Below are positions 8,201 to 24,745 of a stretch of DNA of 64,000 nt, piece after piece (the stretch's first letter is position 1; every line of letters starts with the position of its first letter). Source of the DNA: Chloroflexota bacterium. Its GTDB lineage: Bacteria; Chloroflexota; Dehalococcoidia; Lucifugimonadales; JADFKI01. The stretch is from contig VXNZ01000056.1 in the NCBI GenBank assembly GCA_009840355.1, forward strand, positions 124,001 to 188,000, given 5' to 3'. Under the pieces are notes generated by a model that saw nothing but the letters and a program-made list of their open reading frames with translations, was not told the origin of the DNA and did no database searches. Position numbers and translations under genes: made by a program.

Positions 8201-11200
8201 CTAGTCGCTGGAACCTCCGCTACCTGCGACGCCGCCAGGCACCAAGGCAGTAGCATTCCTAACGAAGACCCAGTAACCGGAACCGATTAGCAGGTTCGTA
8301 CCCATACCCGGGGACATCATGTCGCCGTCAAGCACCGTGTACCATTCGTTCCTGATGGTGTCGAAACCGAGCACTCTAGCTGCTTGGATGCCGTCCTCCA
8401 GGCTCTGCAGATACACTGCTGCGTCGATTGGCGTACCGTGGTCAAGAGCGTTGCCCTTAACATCCGTAACCGGGATCAGGTTCCAACCAGCGTACAGCGG
8501 GATAACCGGCGGCTGTATCGGCGTTCCGGTTCCGACGGCTCCGCCAGCCAGTCTCGGGATGTTAACTTCCCAATCCTGAATCGCGTCGCTGAGGACCCAG
8601 TAACCGCGCTGCCCAGTAATCTCTGTCAGGTCACCCTGCCATTCGCTGTCAAGCGTCTCGCGTACTGCGACCTGCCAACCGCCCGGTACGACCGGGTTGT
8701 AGGTGTAAACGGTCCGTACTTCAACACCGGCGCCAAACACTGTGGCTATGCTGCTGTCCGCGGGCTCACCCGGCAGGGAAATCAGGTTCCAGCCTGGGCT
8801 CAGCCGCTTCTCGAACGGATCCCTGTCGCTAACCTCGAAGTCAATTTCCAGAGCGTCCTCAAGCTCGTTGCCGGCCTGGTCCATTGCCTGGATTTCTACC
8901 TCGTGGTCGCCGAGTCCAATGTTCTCAAGCGTAACCAAGAATGTCTGCTTGTCCGTTGTCCTGACGCTGTCCGTAATATCCACGCCGTCCAGCACGAAGC
9001 TCGTAACTACGATGTCGTCGAAGCTGTCCTCCGCGTATTCGCTGTTCTCGTTCATGCAGTTGGCGAGGCGATAGTTGTCGCTCAGACTCGGCAGATCTTC
9101 GCACGCGACTGCGTCTTCGTAACGCTGCGTGAAGTCGATCTCGAGGAACAGACGCGACCTGTATTCGACTGACGGTTCGTTGTCGGTGATGCTCACGCCA
9201 CCCAGCTTCACATTGGGCTTAGGCAGGTTGATGTCGCCTTCAAAGAACACTGCGTCGCCGGTGTCAACATCGCCGTCCGAGTCAAAGAAATCGGTAACGA
9301 TACTGCCAGGGTTAACACCTTCGCTGCCGGGGTTCTGCTGTGCAGAGCGGTCCTTACCAGCGATGTGGAAGTTGTAGTAACCGGTGCCCTTAGGCTCGCC
9401 TACCGTGATTATCCACTCGGTGTTGGTAACCTTCTCAATTGTCGTCTTTAGGTTGTGGTCGGTAGCTAGGCGGTCGTCCGCGCAGTCATCTGACGTCTCG
9501 CCGGATGTGTTCATCACGACTTCGCCGCGCTTGCGCTTGCCCTTGTCTGCGCCGTCATCGTTGTCGCAGGTCGCCGTGCCCTTGGTGTCAACACTGGCTG
9601 CGTCAACATACGATACGGTTACGGTCGGGCGGGCGGTGTTGAGGCGCTCGTCAACGGTTACGTTGAATACTACCTCATCGCCGTCGCCGGCCAGCACCTT
9701 GTCCGGGTTCTCCGTGGTTTCGCGCGGGGATACGATCGATACTATCGTGAACGCCGGGGAAATCCAGTCGTCCGCTTCCGCTTCGCCGTCGTCCTGCTCG
9801 TTGCCGGCGACATCTTCGATACCGTTCGGCACTAGCGTTACATCAGGCGTCTCGTCGGCTTGCAACTCGTCCTCGAGGTGTATGAATACAGATGTCTCGA
9901 TGGACTGCCGCAAGTGAAGTCCGTCAGGATTCCTGTACCTTTGCTCGCCGCCGGTCGCGTACCTGCTGTCGTCGGTCCAGTCGTCGGGCTGTTCATATAC
10001 ATTCACTGCCACGACGGTGTGGCCTTCGACCACGAAGTCGTCAATCTCAACCGTTGCGGGATTCAGCTGTGTCAAGTCGTTGAAGATGACCTGGATTACG
10101 CTCCGGTCGTCGTCGTACTCTTCATTGCCTTCGTCCCATGTTACGCCCGCACGCGCTTCGTACAACTCAGGCTCGTTAACATCGATTACGATTTCGGCGT
10201 ATTCAACGTCGTCGTCGGAACCGTCCGGATCGAAGTACGTCATGTTACCGGCGCGGTCAACTGCCACGAAGGTTACATAGAATACCTTATCCTCGTCCAA
10301 TACCAACGTCGTCTCGACTTCGATGCCGTTGTCGATGTCGTCAAAGTCCTTGTCTTCGCGTACTGCGATGTAGCCCCACTCGTCGCGGGAGGCTGTGGTC
10401 GCGTCGTACTCGTGGGTGCCGCGCTTGTCGTTGCACTGGGCTACGTCCGCGCGTACCGTGCCATTGTTCCCAAGGTCAATCTCCTCGGGGCGCTCACACT
10501 GCATTCGGCTCACGACTGCGATAACGGGTATGTAGTCTTCATCGCCGTCGCCGTCGGGCAGGTCTTCAGGGCTAGGAATGCCGGATAGGCCGTCCGTTAC
10601 CCGGAAGCTGTAGTCCACATCGGCGTCATCGAACGCGGATTCGTGCTCAGGCGCGAACGATTCGATTTCCGGCGGATCGTTTTCAACATCTACGCTGTCG
10701 CGCAGGTTGTCGAACGCGATACTAATTTCGTCTTCCTCGTCAACCTGGATGCGCGCTACGGAGCCGTCCGTGTGCTTGTACACAGGACTGTCGCCAGGTG
10801 TTGCGCCCATGTCGCGCGGACGTACGCCACCGGCTTCGCGATGCTCTGTCGGCATCAGGTACGCCGGGTCAGCATCGCCGTCGCCCGAGCTTGACGAGCG
10901 GCCAACTAGCTTGACTGCCGCGAGGAACTTGTTCTCTTGATGCGCGCTTCTGTAGGCGATGACGCTGAGCTTATCGTCTGCGGAATCGCTTTCCAGATCG
11001 ACTACCACGCACTGGTTGCCGTTGCCGCAGTCAGAGTCCGGGGATTCGGAGGTGATTTCGATCAGGAGCACCGTGCCCCAGTTCGCCCATTCCGTCTCCA
11101 CGAAGTTGACAGCGTTAGTAACGTTGTCCGGCGTGCCGTCATTGTCTAGGTCGTAGCTTGTGATTGTCGCCGGCAGGTCTGCCGGGCGCTCCTGAACCGC

Positions 11201-14200
11201 TGCGCTGCGCGTGGTCTTCGCGCCGGATAGCGCGGAGTCCGGGAGACCCGCGTTCGGACCCGGAACCGGGTTCGCCTTGCGGATGTCCAGCGTGCTTACA
11301 GAGTCTTCAGCGTCAACTACGGTGATACGAACATCTGTGGCCAGCGACTGAGCGCCGTCACTTGCGTTCACGGTAATGTTGCAGACATTGCCTGCACAAG
11401 GCGTTCCGGAGTCGGCGTCGATGGATTCGAGCGTCACCAGGTCGCCATTGCTCATTATCTCGAACGAATCGGCGTGCGCGCCACTCAGCGAGTAGCTAAT
11501 GCCAGCGTCAAGGCCGTCAGGATCGGTCGCCGAGTAGTTCGCCAAAACCGTGCCGCGAGAAGTGTTTTCCGCGAGGTTCAGCGCAGTGCTCGGTGCGGAG
11601 TCCCAAGTCGGGGCCTCATCGTTCAGGTTCTCCAGGTTGACCCTAAGCAGCAACGTATCGTTCAGACCCGCTGGGTCGTTGACTTCCACGTGCACCCTGG
11701 AGTCGTACTCTGCGTTTTCATAGTCGAGGCCCGGGCCGTCGCTGCGCACATGCAGCTCACCGCTCCATACCTCAACACCGTTAACCATCTCACTGGACTC
11801 GTTCTGGACTTCGAACAGATCCTGGGACTGTCCTTCGCGTAGCACGAAGGTCAGGTCGTCCCCGTCCTCGTCCGTAGCCGTGAAGACGAATATCACAGCG
11901 GCGCTGCCGGTATTCTCCGGTATCGTCGTCACTGCGGCGTCGCCCAGCGGGCTGGTGAAGTTCGGCGCCTCGTTAGCGTTAAGCACGTCCACCGTGATTG
12001 ACATATCGTCGGACAGGCCGTGTTCGTCCGTAGCCTTCACCGTGAAGGAATGGCTGCCGGCAACTTCCGCGTCCAGCGCGCCGCTAACCGTCAGCGCACC
12101 GGTTGTCGGATGCACTACGAACGGCGGCTTGCCCGAGCTGATGGAGTAGGTAATCGAATCGTCGTCCTGGTCATCAGCATGGATGAAAATGGGAAGTTCG
12201 CTGGCCTCCGGGCCGTCCTGGTCCTCTACGACCGCATCACCGGACTGCGCGGTCTCGTACACCCACGGGGTGCCGCGTATCGCGTCAAGTACCGGAGCTT
12301 CGTTGACATCAGTAACCGTCACGCGCACCGAAATCAGGCCCGCGAGATTATCTCCGTTCTTTGCGTTCACCAAGAACGCAGGACTCTCGTCGTCCTCGAA
12401 GTTGGGCATATTCACAACACTGATCGCGCCGGTGCTGCTATCTACCGCGTAGTTCGTGTCACCGCCCTCAACACCGCTCTCGATGCTATAGGAGGTAGCG
12501 CTTGCCACGATGCCCGCGAGGGAGCAGCCGCTTGCCACGCCTGCCTGCGAGCAGTCGCTCGTGTTCTCAGCAACAAATATGCTCACGAACTCGGATGTAA
12601 CCGGGTCCGGCTGACGCTGTGATACCGCAATTTCAATATCGATTGAATCAGATGCACCATTGAAGCCGTCGGTCACGCTGACTGAGATTGTGTCAGTGCT
12701 AGGACCTGAATGCGCATCGCGCGGAAGGTAGGTCAGCAGCAACAAATCAGAAGTGTCTGACGAGTCAAGCACGATGTATGCCGGGTTGTTCGAGATCGAG
12801 AAAGTGAGGGAGTCGCCGTCAGCGTCCGTCACTGATGCCCGGAGGTCGAGCAGAGGGTACGGCACTTCACCTGCGGTTAGCGTCATCGCAATATCGTCGT
12901 CAGCGCCGTCATTAAACATTGCCGGCGAATTCACGTCCACCGTAACGGTGGCGGGAATGGTCTGCTGATTCGCGGTTACGCCGTCCGAAACCATTATGTT
13001 GAAGGTATAGACGACGTCGCCATCGTCGTTAACCGTACCGCTGTCGCTGCGAGTGAAGTCGGCGGCGGTATCCGCTATGGCGCCCTCGACAGTTACCATG
13101 CCGTTGCCGCTGTTAATGTCAAAGACAGCATCACCGGCGCTATCCAGCGAATAGGTCAGCACGTCGCTGTCATTGGCGGAAACGCCATAGCTGGCATCAC
13201 CAACCTCGGCTCCGGCGCTAATAAGGCCGTTGTCCGGCAGGTTTTCTTCCTTGAGGGTAGCAGTGAACGCAGAAGGAACCGTCGGCGCCATGTTCGACGC
13301 GGTAACGGTTATCGTAACGTCTGCGATGGTAGTTCTGTTGGCAAGGCCAGCATCACCGCTCACGGTGAGCTTGAGGTCGTAGTCGCCAACAGACAGGGAA
13401 CCACTCTGGAAGGAGAGCGTCATGTCGTCGTCATCGACGGAGAACATGTCGCTGCCCGTGCCACTCAGGATGCCGTCCAGGTACTCACCCGAAATACCGC
13501 CACTGACCGTGAAAGCACCTATATGGGTACCTTCAGCAATGCCCTGCGGTATCGTGAACTCATTACTTGACGTGATAGCGAGCGCGTCTCGCGAGTTTAT
13601 GTCACCCTCAAGGGTGGTCGTAAGCTCGGTGCCATTAGCGTCGGTATAGGTCAAGTCAACATTGATTGACCGCGAGGTGCCCAAGCTGGGAGCCCCGGAG
13701 TTAACCACGAAGAGACCGAACGTGCCGTCGCCAGTCCTCTTGACCACGAAGTCGCCGGTCGCGCCGTCAAAGTTCTCGTCAAGGGTGTATCCTGTCTCGT
13801 TGATAACCCAACCCAGAGCACCGTCTTCAATCGGGTTGCCCACACTGGACACCCTGGCGTCCTCAACGGCCTTCGAGGCAACGACGTCGAACTGGAGGTC
13901 ATTCGACTCCGGAGCAGGGCCTGTCTGCGCTGCGGCAGTCCTGACCACTACATCGGAATCGCCCGTAACGTCAACGTCATCCATGCCTGGGCCTGGATTT
14001 AGAGCGCCACTAAAAGAATAGGTGGCGTCCATGTCGGAAGCTGTGACCGTATAGGAAAAGTCTCCGTTCCCTAGAAAGCGAAATTCAACTTCAGATCCTG
14101 TCTGAGTTCCACCAAGCGTATTCGTGGTGGAGACATAAGTGAATCCCGCTGGCAGCGTTTCCGTCACACTGCCCGCCAGACCGACGCCTTCGACATCAAT

Positions 14201-14359
14201 GCTCACCGTCACCGATCCGCCCGGCGCCACTGTCGCCGGCTCGAAGGACCGAGTGGCGCTGGGATCCGTCTGTGCTGCCAGGGGTGACGTACTCGACACG
14301 AGAGTCAAGCCGCCGACCACGCTTAGCAGCAATGCCGCCAAAATCAATAGTCTATTCAA
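8201..14359 (-). CDS. Giant secreted cadherin-repeat protein
   Basis: A 2052-residue surface protein. A signal peptide (LLILAALLLSVVGGLTLV, cleavage near LAAQ) leads into an Ig-like or DUF11-like segment (FEPATVAPGGSVTVSIDVEG). A run of cadherin-type domains of about 100 residues follows (roughly 220-1070), with Ca-binding motifs such as DVNEAP, NANEAP, DEDGDD and DPDG. The middle (about 1100-1800) is very acidic and Ig-like. The C-terminus carries two copies of a GWNLISLP/GWNLIPVT domain (about 1840 and 1945) that ends GSGYWVFV. The start is TTG at 14359, seven bases after AAAGGAG. The likely role is calcium-stiffened adhesion or surface-layer structure (inference). Confidence 0.85.
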   Translation of the reverse strand: MNRLLILAALLLSVVGGLTLVSSTSPLAAQTDPSATRSFEPATVAPGGSVTVSIDVEGVGLAGSVTETLPAGFTYVSTTNTLGGTQTGSEVEFRFLGNGDFSYTVTASDMDATYSFSGALNPGPGMDDVDVTGDSDVVVRTAAAQTGPAPESNDLQFDVVASKAVEDARVSSVGNPIEDGALGWVINETGYTLDENFDGATGDFVVKRTGDGTFGLFVVNSGAPSLGTSRSINVDLTYTDANGTELTTTLEGDINSRDALAITSSNEFTIPQGIAEGTHIGAFTVSGGISGEYLDGILSGTGSDMFSVDDDDMTLSFQSGSLSVGDYDLKLTVSGDAGLANRTTIADVTITVTASNMAPTVPSAFTATLKEENLPDNGLISAGAEVGDASYGVSANDSDVLTYSLDSAGDAVFDINSGNGMVTVEGAIADTAADFTRSDSGTVNDDGDVVYTFNIMVSDGVTANQQTIPATVTVDVNSPAMFNDGADDDIAMTLTAGEVPYPLLDLRASVTDADGDSLTFSISNNPAYIVLDSSDTSDLLLLTYLPRDAHSGPSTDTISVSVTDGFNGASDSIDIEIAVSQRQPDPVTSEFVSIFVAENTSDCSQAGVASGCSLAGIVASATSYSIESGVEGGDTNYAVDSSTGAISVVNMPNFEDDESPAFLVNAKNGDNLAGLISVRVTVTDVNEAPVLDAIRGTPWVYETAQSGDAVVEDQDGPEASELPIFIHADDQDDDSITYSISSGKPPFVVHPTTGALTVSGALDAEVAGSHSFTVKATDEHGLSDDMSITVDVLNANEAPNFTSPLGDAAVTTIPENTGSAAVIFVFTATDEDGDDLTFVLREGQSQDLFEVQNESSEMVNGVEVWSGELHVRSDGPGLDYENAEYDSRVHVEVNDPAGLNDTLLLRVNLENLNDEAPTWDSAPSTALNLAENTSRGTVLANYSATDPDGLDAGISYSLSGAHADSFEIMSNGDLVTLESIDADSGTPCAGNVCNITVNASDGAQSLATDVRITVVDAEDSVSTLDIRKANPVPGPNAGLPDSALSGAKTTRSAAVQERPADLPATITSYDLDNDGTPDNVTNAVNFVETEWANWGTVLLIEITSESPDSDCGNGNQCVVVDLESDSADDKLSVIAYRSAHQENKFLAAVKLVGRSSSSGDGDADPAYLMPTEHREAGGVRPRDMGATPGDSPVYKHTDGSVARIQVDEEDEISIAFDNLRDSVDVENDPPEIESFAPEHESAFDDADVDYSFRVTDGLSGIPSPEDLPDGDGDEDYIPVIAVVSRMQCERPEEIDLGNNGTVRADVAQCNDKRGTHEYDATTASRDEWGYIAVREDKDFDDIDNGIEVETTLVLDEDKVFYVTFVAVDRAGNMTYFDPDGSDDDVEYAEIVIDVNEPELYEARAGVTWDEGNEEYDDDRSVIQVIFNDLTQLNPATVEIDDFVVEGHTVVAVNVYEQPDDWTDDSRYATGGEQRYRNPDGLHLRQSIETSVFIHLEDELQADETPDVTLVPNGIEDVAGNEQDDGEAEADDWISPAFTIVSIVSPRETTENPDKVLAGDGDEVVFNVTVDERLNTARPTVTVSYVDAASVDTKGTATCDNDDGADKGKRKRGEVVMNTSGETSDDCADDRLATDHNLKTTIEKVTNTEWIITVGEPKGTGYYNFHIAGKDRSAQQNPGSEGVNPGSIVTDFFDSDGDVDTGDAVFFEGDINLPKPNVKLGGVSITDNEPSVEYRSRLFLEIDFTQRYEDAVACEDLPSLSDNYRLANCMNENSEYAEDSFDDIVVTSFVLDGVDITDSVRTTDKQTFLVTLENIGLGDHEVEIQAMDQAGNELEDALEIDFEVSDRDPFEKRLSPGWNLISLPGEPADSSIATVFGAGVEVRTVYTYNPVVPGGWQVAVRETLDSEWQGDLTEITGQRGYWVLSDAIQDWEVNIPRLAGGAVGTGTPIQPPVIPLYAGWNLIPVTDVKGNALDHGTPIDAAVYLQSLEDGIQAARVLGFDTIRNEWYTVLDGDMMSPGMGTNLLIGSGYWVFVRNATALVPGGVAGSGGSSD

Positions 14360-14500: not shown

Positions 14501-17500
14501 TTATCCTCCGAGATAGATGCCTATAAGGGTATTCATATCGGCATCTGAGAGCATTCCGTCAAGGTAAGCACCAATAGCCGTATTCATCTCACCATCGTCG
14601 ATCACGTCGTCGCTATTTGCATCGTACTCAGCAAGCAGCCTTGCCTCGTCAGACATGTCCACACGGGTCACCGTTACGGTGTAGGTCTCGGTCTCGGTCT
14701 CGTCTTCCGACGTTACCATCACTGCGACCGCGTTATCGCCTACCGACAGCGGGACGTCGTAGTAGTTAGCGAATGTCATATCCACTACATCCTTTGCGTC
14801 GCCCATGAGACCCGGATGCGTGGCATCCGCATTGTAGGTTGTGCAGTACGGGCTGGTAGCATTATCAGGATGGCTGTGATCGTCGTATGCGCGCACTGAG
14901 TCATTCATCGCCGGGCAGCCCAGCATGTCCCAGTACATCGGTATGTCTGTCTTCATCGCGGCAATGCCGTTGACCGTTACGGACACACTGGCGTCCGAAT
15001 TCGTCGTCTTCGGGGTAACCGTTATCGCCTCTGCGGAACCCGCGTCGGCGGTATATGTCATCGTGCCCGAATCAAACGCCGGCATCAGCTCGATAGCCAC
15101 GCCTTCCATCATGTTCATCGGTAGGTGCTTCAGACCCAGCGACGCTAGCGACGCATCGTCGCCTGCGGACTCACGAGTTATCGTAACCGTGTATGTGTTC
15201 ATCGCGACGTAGTCCGAAGCCGTCACCATTACGGTGATGACATTGGCACCAACCATTAGGTCAATGGCATGGCTAGTCAAATTCCGCACACCGGTCGTGT
15301 CTAGGTTATTGCCGATTTCATCATCCCTGTCCGACATTATCCGAACAGTCGCCCTGTTGTTATCAGTAACGGTAGTATTGTCACCAAAGCCCGTAGCCGT
15401 TACCGTAACCGACCCGACTGCGTTCCCAACCTCAGCAGTGTATGCCATGGTGTCCTGGTCATAGTCCGGCATCAAAATGCCAGTGCTAATTGTCAAACCA
15501 CCGGTCTCGATCAACTTCGCATCACTGGAAGCTCCTGCCGGCGCGCGGTTCACCTGCAGCATGTAAGTCTTATTGCTGGCCGACAGACCGTCTTCAGCCA
15601 TCACCTGTACCGCGATAAAGTTCGTATAGCCGACAATCAGGGGAATGTTTCCATCGGCGTCTATCGATCCTGTAGCAGCGGCTTCTGCAGTAGCACCCGT
15701 CCTTATGACTGCCATCGCTCCGGCGTGTGTCGGAGTGGCATCAATCTGGATCGAGTTCATTATGTTAGAAACGCCGGTCGCATAGGTCGACGCCGAAATA
15801 GTAGCGGCGCTAGTGCTGTCAAACTCAGGCAACGGCAGGGACACAGTTTCGGAACCCACCATCAAGGAGCTCAGACTTGCGTCATCCGAAGTGCTCTGGG
15901 TCGCGCGCGTCACAGTCAAGGTGTATGTCTTCGTCGCAACGGCATCCTCAGCCTCCACCATTATGGTGATGACATTCGCGCCTTCCGCCAGCTCAACAAC
16001 GTGTTCATTAGGGGTAGTCGTCGTGGCAATAGCGTCATCCATGTCCGACGTTACTTCGATAGTTGCGCCAGTAGCCAGCGGCAGGGTTAGGGTGATTTCA
16101 TCTTGTGTCCCAGCGGTAGGACTGTCTGTATTCGCGTCCACATCGTGTGGCACGGAAGCCGTGTAGCTCGTAACGTCCTCGCCAAAGGTCGGCGCCACAG
16201 TGATACCGGTGGGGGCTGTAATTGTCAAGTTGGTCAAATTCGCGGTGCTGGAAGCGGTCGGTGACGCGCGTGTAACGCTCAGTATGTAGTTATTTACCGT
16301 CTCGCCATCTGCAGCCGTCACCTGCACCGTGATGAAAACCGCCGCCCCAGCGGTCAGGTCAATCCTGCCGTCCGTGTCTATAGGATTTGTGAGGGCAGCA
16401 CTTACGTCAGCGCCGCTTCGTATGACGACCACAGCGCTGGAGTCCGTCGGAGTGGCAGCGACTAGTACCCTTTGCACTGTAGTAGGAACATTGGTCGTGT
16501 AATCCACATCGTCAGCAGAGGGACTGGCAGTAGAAGTAAAGCCGGAAACGCTCACACTTTCGCCGCCCACCGTCAAGGCGCTCAGCGTCGCATCGTCCGA
16601 ACCGGTCTCAGCGGCGCGCGTTACTGTCACGGTGTATGTCTTCTTCGTCACCACATCCGCGGCTTCCACTACTACGCTGATGACATTCGCACCTACCGCC
16701 AACTCAACGATATTATCACTGCCAATTTCTGAATCCCTGTTCGAGGTTATCGTGAAGGACGCATTAGCAGGAGCAGCAGTCGTATCTGACAGCGTCGGCG
16801 TTACAGTGACTTCGTCGTTTACAGTTACAGGGGTGGCGCCGTCGACATCGTATGGCACGAAAGCCGTGTAGCTCGTAGTGTCCTGGTTGTAAGCCGGCGC
16901 TAACGCGACTGCAGGATTTGTAAGTGTCAAACCATCAGATGCCGCCAAGTTCGCATCGCTGGCAGCATCCTGTGCCACACGCGTTACTTGCAGTATGTAA
17001 TTCCTTCGGCTGGCACTCGTCCCGTCCTGAGCCGTTACTTGCACCGCAATGAAGAGCGGCGTCCCTGCCGTCAGAGAAACCCTTCCGTCCGTGTCTATCG
17101 TTCCTGTAACAGAGGCAGCCGCAGCATCACCAGTCCTTACGAGGACCTGAGCACCGGCGTGGTTCTTCACAGCAGTAACTTGGACCGACTCCGTTGCGAA
17201 CGGGAATCTGGTTGTGTAGTCCACAAGTCCGTCGGCGCCATCAGCGAGCTCAATGTTCGCTGCGGGTACGGACTTGCCGCCCACCGTCAAAGAACTCAAC
17301 CTCGCATCGTCCGAAGAATTCGCGCGGGCGCGCGTCACAGTTACAGTATATGTTTTCTTCGTGACTACATTCGCAGCCTCCACCGATATGGTGATGACAT
17401 TCGCGCCTTCCGCCAACTCCACCGTGTAAGCGCCACCACTTTCAGCAAGCTCGGAATCCTTGTTCGAGGCTATCGTGAACGACGCACCTGCGGTGGTCGT

Positions 17501-18172
17501 TTGCGGGTCGGTATCGTCGGCTAGCGTCGGCGTTACGGTGATTGTATTGGTAGCGTCATTACCGGAGTCATTCACATCGTATGGAACGAAAAGCGAGTAG
17601 CTCGTAGTGTCCGGGTCATAATCCGGCACTAAAGTGGTGCCAGTTGGGACACCACCGATTGCCAAACCAGTGGTCGCCGCCAAGTTCGCATTGTCGCTAG
17701 CGCCTGACGACACGCGCGTAACTGTGACGACATATATCGTTCCAGTAGCGGTGGCGCCACTTCCTGTCGCTATAACAACGCCGATATCTGTGCTTTCATT
17801 CGATCTAAGCGGCACGTTGCCACCGGATGCAACTTGGCCTGGAAGGGTCGTGAAATCTGATACTGACCCTGCAGTGCTAGAAGGAGTAATATCCGGAGCG
17901 TACCTGATGCTATGCACACGGGACCCTGACACCGCTGAGGCGTTGACTTGTATGTGAGTGGTTCCACTCGACACCCGTGTGGGATTGGCAGTGTAGTCAA
18001 AAGTGCCAACAGCGAAGCCGCTTACTGCCTTGCCGCCCACAGTGATGCTGGCTGCAGACTGCGCGTGTGCGCGGTCGGGATCAGCGACAAACGGCGTCAT
18101 CGTTGCCACAAGTGCGAGCAACAAAGCCCCCAGCAGCGCTGATATGGGGATAAATGCTTTTCTATTGTTCAA
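14501..18172 (-). CDS. Secreted cadherin-like beta-sandwich repeat protein with C-terminal EF-hand (dockerin-like)
   Basis: A 1223-residue exported protein. After a signal peptide (ALLGALLLALVATMTPFV, cleavage near AHAQ) come about ten related domains of roughly 100 residues. Each contains SDDAxLSxLTVGG…TTSYTAxVPxDV…VITVxVEA…TKTYTVTVTRA, the pattern of the cadherin-like beta-sandwich family (PF12733 type). The C-terminal 45 residues contain DANSDDVIDDGE, a complete EF-hand loop with acidic or Asn ligands at 1, 3, 5 and 12. A degenerate second helix pair (LSDADMNTLIGIYL) follows. This could be a dockerin-like or Ca-dependent anchoring module. The TTG start at 18172 lies five bases after AGGAGG. 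It is the first of four adjacent surface genes. Confidence 0.83.
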   Translation of the reverse strand: MNNRKAFIPISALLGALLLALVATMTPFVADPDRAHAQSAASITVGGKAVSGFAVGTFDYTANPTRVSSGTTHIQVNASAVSGSRVHSIRYAPDITPSSTAGSVSDFTTLPGQVASGGNVPLRSNESTDIGVVIATGSGATATGTIYVVTVTRVSSGASDNANLAATTGLAIGGVPTGTTLVPDYDPDTTSYSLFVPYDVNDSGNDATNTITVTPTLADDTDPQTTTAGASFTIASNKDSELAESGGAYTVELAEGANVITISVEAANVVTKKTYTVTVTRARANSSDDARLSSLTVGGKSVPAANIELADGADGLVDYTTRFPFATESVQVTAVKNHAGAQVLVRTGDAAAASVTGTIDTDGRVSLTAGTPLFIAVQVTAQDGTSASRRNYILQVTRVAQDAASDANLAASDGLTLTNPAVALAPAYNQDTTSYTAFVPYDVDGATPVTVNDEVTVTPTLSDTTAAPANASFTITSNRDSEIGSDNIVELAVGANVISVVVEAADVVTKKTYTVTVTRAAETGSDDATLSALTVGGESVSVSGFTSTASPSADDVDYTTNVPTTVQRVLVAATPTDSSAVVVIRSGADVSAALTNPIDTDGRIDLTAGAAVFITVQVTAADGETVNNYILSVTRASPTASSTANLTNLTITAPTGITVAPTFGEDVTSYTASVPHDVDANTDSPTAGTQDEITLTLPLATGATIEVTSDMDDAIATTTTPNEHVVELAEGANVITIMVEAEDAVATKTYTLTVTRATQSTSDDASLSSLMVGSETVSLPLPEFDSTSAATISASTYATGVSNIMNSIQIDATPTHAGAMAVIRTGATAEAAATGSIDADGNIPLIVGYTNFIAVQVMAEDGLSASNKTYMLQVNRAPAGASSDAKLIETGGLTISTGILMPDYDQDTMAYTAEVGNAVGSVTVTATGFGDNTTVTDNNRATVRIMSDRDDEIGNNLDTTGVRNLTSHAIDLMVGANVITVMVTASDYVAMNTYTVTITRESAGDDASLASLGLKHLPMNMMEGVAIELMPAFDSGTMTYTADAGSAEAITVTPKTTNSDASVSVTVNGIAAMKTDIPMYWDMLGCPAMNDSVRAYDDHSHPDNATSPYCTTYNADATHPGLMGDAKDVVDMTFANYYDVPLSVGDNAVAVMVTSEDETETETYTVTVTRVDMSDEARLLAEYDANSDDVIDDGEMNTAIGAYLDGMLSDADMNTLIGIYLGG

Positions 18173-18639: not shown

Positions 18640-19290
18640 ATGGAAATATCGTGGCTGGGGAACTGGGCGGTGCGAGTGCAGTCGGGGCAGACGGCGGTGG
18701 TGTCGGATCCGTATTACGCGGAGGACGGCGCGCGGATGCCGGAGACGAGCGCGGATATAGTGACGGTGAGCATTGACGCGCCGCGCCATTCCAATGCGGG
18801 CGCGGTGGGCGGTTCGCCTCGCGTGCTGCGGGGACCGGGCGAGTACGAGATTGCGAACTTCTACATAAGCGGCATGGGCACGCCGTACGGGAACGCGGAG
18901 GACGCGGACGGTCGGCTGGTGAGCACGGTGTACGCGATGCGCGCGGAGGGTGTGCGGGTGTGCCACGCGGGTGGCAGTGTGCCGTCGCTGAGTTCGCGGC
19001 AGCTGGACGAGCTGAACAATGTGGAAGTGCTGGTGGTGGACGCGAGCGGCGGTGAGAGCGCGGCGAAGCGTGTGGCGCGGCTGGTGCAGCAGGTGGGACC
19101 GCGGATAGTGGTGCCTGTGGGCTGGCAGGCGGGCGCGGATGGCGCGGGCGATGATGATGCGGGTGCGCTGGGTGCGCTGCTGGGCGAGCTGGGAGCGAGT
19201 GATGTGTCGCCGCGTCCGACGCTGCGCGTAACGGCGACGAGCTTGCCGCGCGAGATGAGCGTGGTCGTGCTGTCGGCGCAGGCGGGGTAG
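18640..19290 (+). CDS. Metallo-beta-lactamase-fold (UlaG-like) protein with degenerate metal site
   Basis: A 216-residue protein. The opening MEISWLGNWAVRVQSG and the later GPGEYEI and IVVPVGW segments match short MBL-fold hydrolases of the UlaG/YtnP-like group. The hallmark HxHxDH metal motif should follow the SADIVTVS strand. That position reads DAPRHSNAG, so most metal ligands are absent and catalysis by the usual two-zinc mechanism is doubtful. The ATG at 18640 is preceded by AGGAGG with a 9-base spacer, which is better than the in-frame ATG 12 codons upstream. The gene stands alone, converging on the coiled-coil pair. The substrate is unknown. Confidence 0.7.
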   Translation: MEISWLGNWAVRVQSGQTAVVSDPYYAEDGARMPETSADIVTVSIDAPRHSNAGAVGGSPRVLRGPGEYEIANFYISGMGTPYGNAEDADGRLVSTVYAMRAEGVRVCHAGGSVPSLSSRQLDELNNVEVLVVDASGGESAAKRVARLVQQVGPRIVVPVGWQAGADGAGDDDAGALGALLGELGASDVSPRPTLRVTATSLPREMSVVVLSAQAG

Positions 19291-19312: not shown

Positions 19313-19684
19313 TTAGGTGAGCAGGCTGACGATATAGGCGGCAACGCCCCCGCCGACGATGGTGAATATGCCGATGCCCGCGAGGAAGATGTGGTGGTTG
19401 AGTGCGTCGAACTTGGCGTCGAAGCGGTCGTTGATGCTGTCAAACTTCGCGTTGATGCTGTCAAACTTCGCGTTGATGGCGTCAAATTTCGCTTCGTATT
19501 TCTTATCAAGGGCGTCTATTTTGGCGTCGAACTTCCTGTCGAGGGCGTCAAAGCGATCATTGATGGCGTCAAACTTCGCGTTGTGATCCCTCAGCAGCTC
19601 AATGATAATCTCCTGCTGCGCCTCTATGCGCGCCATCCGCTCTTCGACGGAATACGGATTAGTCGTCGGGGCTTCGGTGGTCAT
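19313..19684 (-). CDS. Coiled-coil protein with C-terminal membrane helix, duplicate A
   Basis: A 123-residue protein. The N-terminus MTTEAPTTNPYSVEERMARIEAQQ leads into a coiled coil of mixed 7- and 11-residue units (AKFDSIN; RKFDAKIDALD). It closes with one transmembrane helix (IFLAGIGIFTIVGGGVAAYIVSLL) and almost no tail, so it is a tail-anchored protein with a long coiled stalk. AAGGAG stands 8 bases before the ATG at 19684. It is a close duplicate of the gene at 19748-20164: both ends and the upstream 65 bases are nearly identical while the coil differs in length. The layout (coil plus terminal helix) resembles XhlA-like or other membrane-tethered coil proteins, but I assign no function. 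Confidence 0.75.
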   Translation of the reverse strand: MTTEAPTTNPYSVEERMARIEAQQEIIIELLRDHNAKFDAINDRFDALDRKFDAKIDALDKKYEAKFDAINAKFDSINAKFDSINDRFDAKFDALNHHIFLAGIGIFTIVGGGVAAYIVSLLT

Positions 19685-19747
19685 CAACAGAACTCCTTAA
19701 TAGGGATGGTGCGTGCAGTATAGGCGATTATGCGCGGCGCGGGAAGG

Positions 19748-20164
19748 TTAGGTGAGCAGGCTGACGATGTAGGCTGCGACACCCCCACCGACGATGGTGA
19801 ATATGCCGATGCCCGCGAGGAAGATGCGGTGATTGACAGCGTCGATGCGGTTGTTGGTGGTGTCAAACTTCGCGTCGAACTTCTTGTCAAGAACGTCCAT
19901 TTTCGCGTCGAACTTCTTGTCAAGAACGTCTATTTTCGCGTCGAACTTCTTGTCAAGGACGTCTATCTTCGTGTCGAATTTCTTGTCAAGGACGTCTATC
20001 TTCGTGTCGAATTTCTTGTCAAGGGCGTCTATCTTGGCATTGTTTTCCCTCAGCAGCTCATTATTGTCTCTCAGCAGCTCAATAAGAAGCTCCTGCTGCG
20101 CCTCCATTCGCGCCATCCGCTCTTCCGCGGAATACGGATTAGTCGTCGGGGCTTCGGTGGTCAT
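19748..20164 (-). CDS. Coiled-coil protein with C-terminal membrane helix, duplicate B
   Basis: A 138-residue paralogue of the 19313-19684 product, lying between it and rho. The first 33 residues and the membrane helix are almost the same. The coil here is five nearly identical 11-residue units (KKFDAKIDVLD type, about 55-110). Hendecads with hydrophobics at a, d/e and h favour a slightly right-handed, straight coil. The ATG at 20164 has the same AAGGAG ribosome site. On the minus strand the shared upstream region contains CCTATACTGC, and TATAAT (CATAAT in copy A), a possible promoter copied with the gene. It lies 66 bases downstream of the rho stop, so read-through from rho is possible. Function unknown. 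Confidence 0.75.
   Translation of the reverse strand: MTTEAPTTNPYSAEERMARMEAQQELLIELLRDNNELLRENNAKIDALDKKFDTKIDVLDKKFDTKIDVLDKKFDAKIDVLDKKFDAKMDVLDKKFDAKFDTTNNRIDAVNHRIFLAGIGIFTIVGGGVAAYIVSLLT
19871..20035 (-). repeat. 33-bp tandem repeat, five units, encoding the hendecads
   Basis: Units begin at 19871, 19904, 19937, 19970 and 20003, each 33 bases with only a few substitutions. The repeat is a whole number of codons, so copy-number change keeps the frame. Duplicate A has a shorter, more diverged coil made of mixed 21- and 33-base units. Confidence 0.9.
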
Positions 20165-20230
20165 CAACAGAACTCCTTAATAGGGATGGTGCGTGCAGTA
20201 TAGGCGATTATACGCGGCGCGGGAAGTCGG

Positions 20231-21514
20231 CTACCGGCGCATGGGCGAGACTTCCTGCGCGAGGCGGGGCAGGTTGACGAGGAATTCCTTGTTGTTGCGT
20301 GTGTTGCGCATAATTTTGGTGATGACCTCGATGGCGTTGTCGTCGCCTTGGGACTTTTGCAGCGCGACGAAACGGCGGAGCAGCCAGACATGCTGCAGTG
20401 AAGCATCGTCGATGAGCAGCTCTTCGCGGCGTGTGCCGCTGCGCTCGATGTCGATGGCGGGGAAGAAGCGGCGCTCGGCGAGGCGGCGGTCGAGATGGAC
20501 TTCCATGTTGCCCGTGCCCTTGAACTCCTCGTACACGAGGTCGTCGAGCCTGCTGCCCGTGTCGATGAGGCATGCGGCGATGATGGTGAGCGAGCCGCCC
20601 TCTTCGGTATTGCGGGCGGCGCCGAAGAACCTTTTGGGCGGGTAGAGCGCGACGGGGTCCATACCGCCCGACAGTGTGCGACCGCTGCTCGGCACGGCGA
20701 GATTGTAGGCGCGAGTGAGCCGCGTGATGCTGTCGAGCAGGATGACCACATCCTTGCCGCCTTCGACGAGGCGCTTGGAGCGTTCCAGCACCATCTCGGC
20801 GACGCGGCAGTGGTCTTCGACCGGCTCGTCGAAAGTGGAGCTGTACACCTCGCCGTTGACCGAGCGCGTGACATCGGTCACCTCTTCGGGGCGCTCGCCG
20901 ATGAGCGCGACCATGATGTGGATGTCCGGTGCGTTGGCGGCGATGCCGTCGGCAATCTGCTTGAGCAGCGTGGTCTTGCCTGCCTTGGGCGGGGAGACGA
21001 TAAGCCCGCGCTGCCCTCTGCCAATGGGCGCGAGCATGTCGATAAGCCGCGTGGACACGAGGTCTTTGCGCGTTTCGAGCGTGATCTGCCGCGTGGGGTG
21101 GATAGCGGTCAGGCTCTCGAAGTGCTTGCGGCGGCGGGAGCGATCGGGCTCGCTGCCGTTGACCTGCTCGACGCGGACAAGGCCGAAGTAGCGCTCGCCG
21201 TCCTTTGGGGGGCGCACCTGTCCGTGCACCTCGTCGCCGGTGCGCAGGCTGAAGCGGCGGATCTGCGACTGCGAGACATAGACGTCGGAGTTGCTGGCGG
21301 AGGCGCCGGACTGTCGCAGGAAGCCGTAGCCGTCGTTGAGGATGCTGAGGATGCCGCCCGCCTTGAGATTGCCGTTCTTCTCGGAGAGGTTGGCGAGCAC
21401 CTTGTTCATCATCTCGCGGCGATGCGGCATGTTGCCGTTCTCGAAGACGCCCAGCTCTTTTCCGAGCTTGTAGAGGTCTTCGTTGTTAAGGCTTTGAAGC
21501 TCAGCGAGGTTCAT
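20231..21514 (-). CDS. rho: Transcription termination factor Rho
   Basis: Rho is a hexameric RNA helicase that ends transcription of untranslated RNA. The 427 residues comprise an N-terminal helical region (1-50), a cold-shock-like RNA-binding domain with GYGFLRQ (62-68), and an ATPase core. The core has P-loop PPKAGKTT (175-182), VALIGERPEEVTD, LLDSITRLTRAYN (Walker B and Q-loop region) and ERRFFPAIDI. The ATG at 21514 is preceded by GGAG with 6 bases between. An in-frame start nine codons earlier exists but lacks a ribosome site. A shared transcript with the downstream coiled-coil gene is possible but unproven. Confidence 0.96.
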   Translation of the reverse strand: MNLAELQSLNNEDLYKLGKELGVFENGNMPHRREMMNKVLANLSEKNGNLKAGGILSILNDGYGFLRQSGASASNSDVYVSQSQIRRFSLRTGDEVHGQVRPPKDGERYFGLVRVEQVNGSEPDRSRRRKHFESLTAIHPTRQITLETRKDLVSTRLIDMLAPIGRGQRGLIVSPPKAGKTTLLKQIADGIAANAPDIHIMVALIGERPEEVTDVTRSVNGEVYSSTFDEPVEDHCRVAEMVLERSKRLVEGGKDVVILLDSITRLTRAYNLAVPSSGRTLSGGMDPVALYPPKRFFGAARNTEEGGSLTIIAACLIDTGSRLDDLVYEEFKGTGNMEVHLDRRLAERRFFPAIDIERSGTRREELLIDDASLQHVWLLRRFVALQKSQGDDNAIEVITKIMRNTRNNKEFLVNLPRLAQEVSPMRR

Positions 21515-21853
21515 GAGATACTCCGCACCCAAAAGGCGCATGCTAAAGGCTGATGGACTGAAATAGACGGGAAGAAATAATGCGGCGCAATTGCCTTATG
21601 ACAAACTAAACGGCGCGCTCATACGGGCGGGCAGGCTAGACGGCAGATTCAACAGGCAGGCTCATGGCAGGGGACAATCAACAATTGGGGAAAGTGCACA
21701 TCAGCGTTAGACGCCGCAGGGGAGTCTCAACGAAGTATAGCACACTGGAATACGCCCTGCCTTAAGCATTATATCCGCTAAAATCCCCATTCGCAACGCT
21801 TGCTTCAAGACGATTTCACAAATGCAATTTATCTGTCATTTGCAATTTATACC

Positions 21854-24673: not shown

Positions 24674-24745
24674 ATGGGTAAGTCCCTCATGGGTAAGTCC
24701 CTCATGGGTAAGTCCCTCATGGGTAAGTCCCTCATGGGTAAGTCC
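24674..24745. repeat. 15-bp tandem repeat upstream of the SDR
   Basis: ATGGGTAAGTCCCTC is repeated four times without change (24674-24733) and followed by a 12-base partial copy. It sits in the leader of the SDR gene. Read on the minus strand each unit encodes MRDLP, and the frame runs on, out of phase, across the SDR start. Confidence 0.95.

Follow-up and report, generated by a model that had tools for sequence, protein, structure and literature searches.

Organization of the locus

The window analysed here is a stretch of 64,000 nucleotides from a Chloroflexota genome, in which two adjacent small genes, copies A and B, lie on the minus strand in the order rho, copy B, copy A and face a convergent gene for a beta-lactamase-fold protein (Table 1). 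Both encoded proteins begin with MTTEAPTTNPYS, followed by a cap (ERMAR, QQE, ELLRD) and a long coil, and both end in the C-terminal helix IFLAGIGIFTIVGGGVAAYIVSLLT. The ERMAR, QQE and LL of the cap are invariant across six aligned proteins, and the single membrane anchor proposed in a sequence-only reading of this DNA is evident from hydropathy and kept in relatives. That reading had described a tandem duplication with matching ends and different coils, which is what the pair proved to be. Its statement that the ends are nearly identical holds for the proteins, where 26 of the first 30 residues and all of the last 25 agree, but not for the DNA, where the first 33 codons carry 9 differences in 99 nucleotides and the last 30 codons carry 8 in 90. 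Upstream, where about 65 common bases had been noted, the 59 bp that we compared contain one mismatch. The ribosome site AAGGAG is present in both copies, so that part of the suggestion that the duplicate kept its promoter and ribosome site stands; the promoter part is unproven, as a promoter scan found no sigma-70-like promoter on the coding strand of the duplicated upstream block.

Table 1. Features of the coil-gene pair and its neighbours (positions in the window)
Feature	Position	Strand	Basis or remark
Copy A, tail-anchored coiled-coil protein, 123 aa from ATG	19313..19684	-	AAGGAG 8 nt 5' of ATG; AF2 single helix 13-122
Copy B, tail-anchored coiled-coil protein, 138 aa	19748..20164	-	AF2 single helix 13-137
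Copy B upstream block, duplicated in copy A	20165..20223	-	1 mismatch in 59; homologous to the G002 rho-coil spacer
Copy A upstream block	19685..19743	-	Counterpart of the copy B upstream block
Copy B, five 33-bp (11-residue) units, residues 43-97	19874..20038	-	TRF
Copy B, 21-bp (7-residue) duplication	20038..20081	-	TRF
Copy A coil, three 21-bp (7-residue) units	19429..19492	-	TRF
Copy A conserved N-terminal cap, residues 12-33	19586..19651	-	Alignment of six proteins
Copy B conserved N-terminal cap, residues 12-33	20066..20131	-	Alignment of six proteins
Copy A C-terminal membrane helix, residues 104-122	19319..19375	-	Hydropathy; kept in relatives
Copy B C-terminal membrane helix, residues 119-137	19754..19810	-	Hydropathy; kept in relatives
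rho, upstream neighbour, same strand as the pair	20231..21541	-	Found once in nearly all relatives
Beta-lactamase-superfamily protein, convergent neighbour	18640..19290	+	Pfam PF13483, 91 bits

The coils had been described as five near-identical units of 33 bp in copy B and a mixed 7/11-residue pattern in copy A, and both TRF and the periodicity analysis bear this out. TRF finds 5.1 copies of the 33-bp unit at 19868-20035 (94% matches, score 259) in copy B, and 21-bp units mixed with 11-residue units in copy A. Some adjacent units of copy B (2 and 3, and 4 and 5) are only one nucleotide apart, a likeness that local duplication predicts. The best hydrophobic period is 3.585 residues per turn in copy A and 3.63 in copy B, and in neither case was the periodicity reached by any of 500 shuffled sequences. 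The AF2 models consist of one continuous helix with a mean pLDDT of 84.7 for copy A and 81.8 for copy B (above 85 over most of the rod) and with no visible head domain; these are monomer models built with four sequences, which say nothing about oligomerisation, and AF2 will nearly always turn a repetitive charged sequence into a helix.

Elsewhere in the window, positions 8201-14359 and 14501-18172 encode two giant secreted-looking proteins (2052 aa and 1223 aa). One of them has cadherin domains and the other has eight cadherin-like beta-sandwich stretches. A perfect 15-bp tandem repeat of 4.8 copies lies at 24674-24745, directly upstream of a short-chain dehydrogenase gene.

Age of the duplication

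The duplicated unit is about 480 bp long and runs from just past the rho stop to just past the coil stop. Between the coding ends of A and B, dN is 0.044 and dS 0.28, giving a dN/dS of about 0.16; the ends are under purifying selection and A and B are thus real genes. The rho genes of this genome and of G002, its nearest relative, differ by a dS of 0.24, so that the duplication would be about as old as the split between these two species, a rough estimate from 62 codons. Copy A is the more G002-like of the two copies (dN 0.063 and dS 0.37 at the ends, compared with a dS of 0.70 for copy B), and the coil of copy B looks by eye like that of G003.

The duplication had been called recent, which needs qualification. 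The coding ends differ in their DNA, so it is not very young, but the upstream DNA and the first 12 codons are nearly unchanged. They contain an identical run of 84 bp, with differences beginning from codon 13, and each 59-bp upstream block shows 12-13 differences and 4 gaps relative to G002. Since the chance of an 84-bp identical run at 9% divergence is about 3 in 10,000, the pattern suggests gene conversion after duplication as the best explanation.

Relatives within the genus and the position beside rho

Close homologues were found only within the same genus, and their public records are MAGs (Chloroflexi bacterium SB0664_bin_29, Chloroflexi bacterium TM_07 and uncultured Dehalococcoidia bacterium), which we take to be sponge-associated. 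They retain cap and anchor and differ mainly in the coil, with lengths of 87, 101, 123 and 138 aa and also 77 and 252 aa. A single copy follows rho directly in G002 (87 aa) and in G003 (101 aa). In G004 a pair of 252 and 77 aa lies past the beta-lactamase gene, one gene away from rho, and in G001, where rho directly faces the beta-lactamase gene, no coil gene was found at E 0.001. Both copy number and coil length therefore vary among close relatives; single-copy homologues of fixed length, which would have spoken against a rapidly evolving pair, are not what the genus contains.

The coil gene is thus directly behind rho in three of five genus members, on the same strand and at a gap of 64-73 bp. 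Outside the genus it was downstream of rho in none of 25 genomes (up to 1.5 kb examined, less than 1 kb in five). Because the arrangement is confined to the genus, the rho address of the pair is best read, from these comparisons, as local history, and a special tie to rho is not supported.

Tandem arrays across the order

Of 247 genomes of the order, 28 have a match, and weaker relatives are present among these matches, several of them as adjacent pairs. We found 12 tandem arrays in seven genomes of the order (one each in G000, G012 and G164, two each in G004, G073 and G129, and three in G194), of which 11 are C-anchored and one, in G129 at 1.47 Mb, is N-anchored. The two G073 arrays have members of 75/90/101 aa and 136/107 aa, and one of those in G194 has members of 97/130/101 aa. 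Length differences within arrays include 7, 11, 18, 22, 29 and 33 residues and are mostly located in the coil, with ends of high identity in most pairs; the array members that were read keep an open frame, and coil repeats are gained and lost in frame. Of the 18 pairs compared within arrays, 15 share 15 or more of their last 25 residues in an ungapped comparison; the remaining three all come from G004, and in two of these the C-termini are simply shifted by one residue. The neighbours of the arrays are unrelated (nuo, GTP cyclohydrolase and other genes). Because twin and triplet genes recur at unrelated places in related bacteria, the pattern can be taken as both real and general. As coils may look alike without shared ancestry, the likeness of the array families is one of plan and need not reflect descent. 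A sample of about 300 genomes from the phylum, searched with queries that favour the order, contained none outside the order with two separate adjacent genes among its matches.

Several individual loci were noted as well. In G004, three tandem tail-anchored coil genes of 161, 153 and 171 aa (C1, ~138.7-140.4 kb; L109:4696-6363) lie between genes that by eye are nuoH- and nuoI-like (respiratory complex I). G194 has seven closely similar coil genes of the ATK type in three tandem arrays (L096:5783-6610, L096:13108-14200 and L097:3731-4819), and part of the flanking DNA is also similar, suggesting that whole arrays spread by recombination. The window's own genome, G000, has a 91-aa coil-plus-anchor gene with an ATK beta-layer motif adjoining a pair that by eye is a HicA/HicB-like toxin-antitoxin system (C3, ~87 kb; L111:1043-1755), and a mini coil of 64 aa, anchored at its C-terminus, among genes that by eye are suf-like, for a SufC-like ATPase and a SufD-like protein (C34, ~34 kb; L110:1474-1668).

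Interpretation

The explanation that we favour, and in which we would place about half of our confidence, is that A and B belong to a family of tail-anchored coiled-coil stalks that is specific to this lineage and evolves by birth and death; in-frame recombination between repeats would change the stalk length, and the proteins are likely to serve as scaffold or spacer rods. Each protein would consist of a short non-helical start, a helical cap (about residues 12-33), a rod of in-frame 7- and 11-residue units and a C-terminal membrane helix, with the rod probably facing the cytoplasm, as the positive-inside rule suggests. The genes would duplicate in tandem, here as the ~480-bp unit, and unequal in-frame recombination between rod repeats would lengthen or shorten the rod by 7 or 11 residues at a time. 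Cap and anchor would stay under purifying selection, and gene conversion may partly homogenise both. With 0.15 nm for each helical residue, the 87-aa relative would reach about 4 nm, A and B 9-12 nm and the 252-aa relative about 25 nm. Homo- or hetero-oligomeric rods of this kind could keep the cap at a fixed distance from the membrane and so act as a scaffold or spacer. A bolder version, in which a tandem set of repeat-tuned rods acts jointly as a ruler or as a mixed-length membrane brush and would be a length-diversifying system new to the literature, we consider improbable.

A serious rival, although the less likely of the two, is that the length changes reflect near-neutral birth and death. 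Repeat-rich small genes duplicate and slip easily, the products could be tolerated since a single tail-anchored helix is harmless, and coil length would then have no function. The patchy presence of the genes in the order and their absence from G001, the spread in length from 77 to 252 aa and the unrelated locations are all in keeping with such turnover, and with so much freedom in coil length, that length may be of little consequence. Simple neutrality is however at odds with the purifying selection on the ends, with the open frames of the array members read and with the preserved coil periodicity of A and B. Lengths from 75 to 252 residues on near-constant ends, repeated in separate arrays, form a natural series that lends itself to testing whether coil length is functional or neutral noise.

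It is also conceivable, but with a low probability, that the pair are divergent DUF1640/CCDC90 (MCUR1-like) proteins of the head-neck-stalk-anchor type that build a membrane complex. Both have the overall layout of a head, a stalk that is coiled and an anchor at the C-terminus (PMC8224590), and the motif [aliphatic]-A-T-K-[polar]-[DE], which forms a beta-layer at the stalk start in that family (PMC4786415), occurs in the G194 and G129 arrays and in a gene elsewhere in the window's genome. The pair itself, however, lacks the motif, PF07798 is not among the Pfam matches listed for A or B, and the related arrays reach at most 17.7 bits against a cutoff of 33.5, the top score being that of an ATK-bearing G194 member. 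By Pfam cutoff and motif, A and B would thus not be counted as DUF1640 members.

We regard it as very unlikely that the coil protein is a partner of Rho, a membrane tether co-transcribed with rho for transcription termination; the closely spaced same-strand gene in three species would suit such a role, but the gene is separated from rho by another gene in G004, is missing from G001 and is not beside rho in the 25 genomes outside the genus, and similar arrays adjoin unrelated genes. An assembly artefact or a misjoining of strain variants, which short repeats in an assembly of 57 contigs might invite and which had been named as a way in which the duplication could fail, can hardly be credited because the copies differ along their length within a 252-kb contig and similar arrays recur in other genomes, including single-contig ones such as G194 and G129.

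Comparison with known families

Scans of A and B against Pfam, NCBIfam, PHROGs and PADLOC gave generic coil matches only, below the curated cutoffs where such exist, and sequence searches of the PDB returned only generic coiled coils (TRAF7, synaptobrevin, HA2). A role in defence, which had also been raised, was rejected: the matches to PADLOC anti-phage models are coil-driven and to large proteins (E 0.0005-0.009, about 13-17 bits), and no defence genes adjoin the pair. An origin as a phage or prophage protein was likewise rejected, since the phage matches listed are tape-measure coils covering 44-46% and no relatives of the pair were found in viral contigs. Many short coil-plus-anchor proteins in bacteria have no assigned role, and profile libraries miss such proteins because coils score badly.

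Three known families come closest. The best NCBIfam match of copy A is the ssr2422 family thylakoid membrane protein (NF053525), which covers residues 56-120 including the anchor at 23 bits, but this is under the 38-bit cutoff and copy B is unmatched. XhlA (PF10779) and similar short proteins share a short N-terminal helix, a coil and one C-terminal membrane helix; in contrast to these, the pair has no phage or lysis context, no match to XhlA is listed for A or B, and relatives in the order reach at most 24.1 bits against a cutoff of 34.7. The DUF1640/CCDC90-like proteins (MCUR1, CCDC90B, Put6/Put7; PF07798) have an N-terminal tip, a coiled stalk and a single C-terminal membrane anchor, and A and B differ from them in having no beta-layer motif, visible head-neck domain or Pfam match above cutoff. 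In MCUR1, a head-neck-stalk-anchor protein, the length of the stalk is said to matter (PMC8224590). The C-terminal part of that plan, a coiled stalk that ends in a membrane anchor, is found in A and B by periodicity, hydropathy and an AF2 helix that runs to the C-terminus, and it is likely that they work like a stalk-anchor protein.
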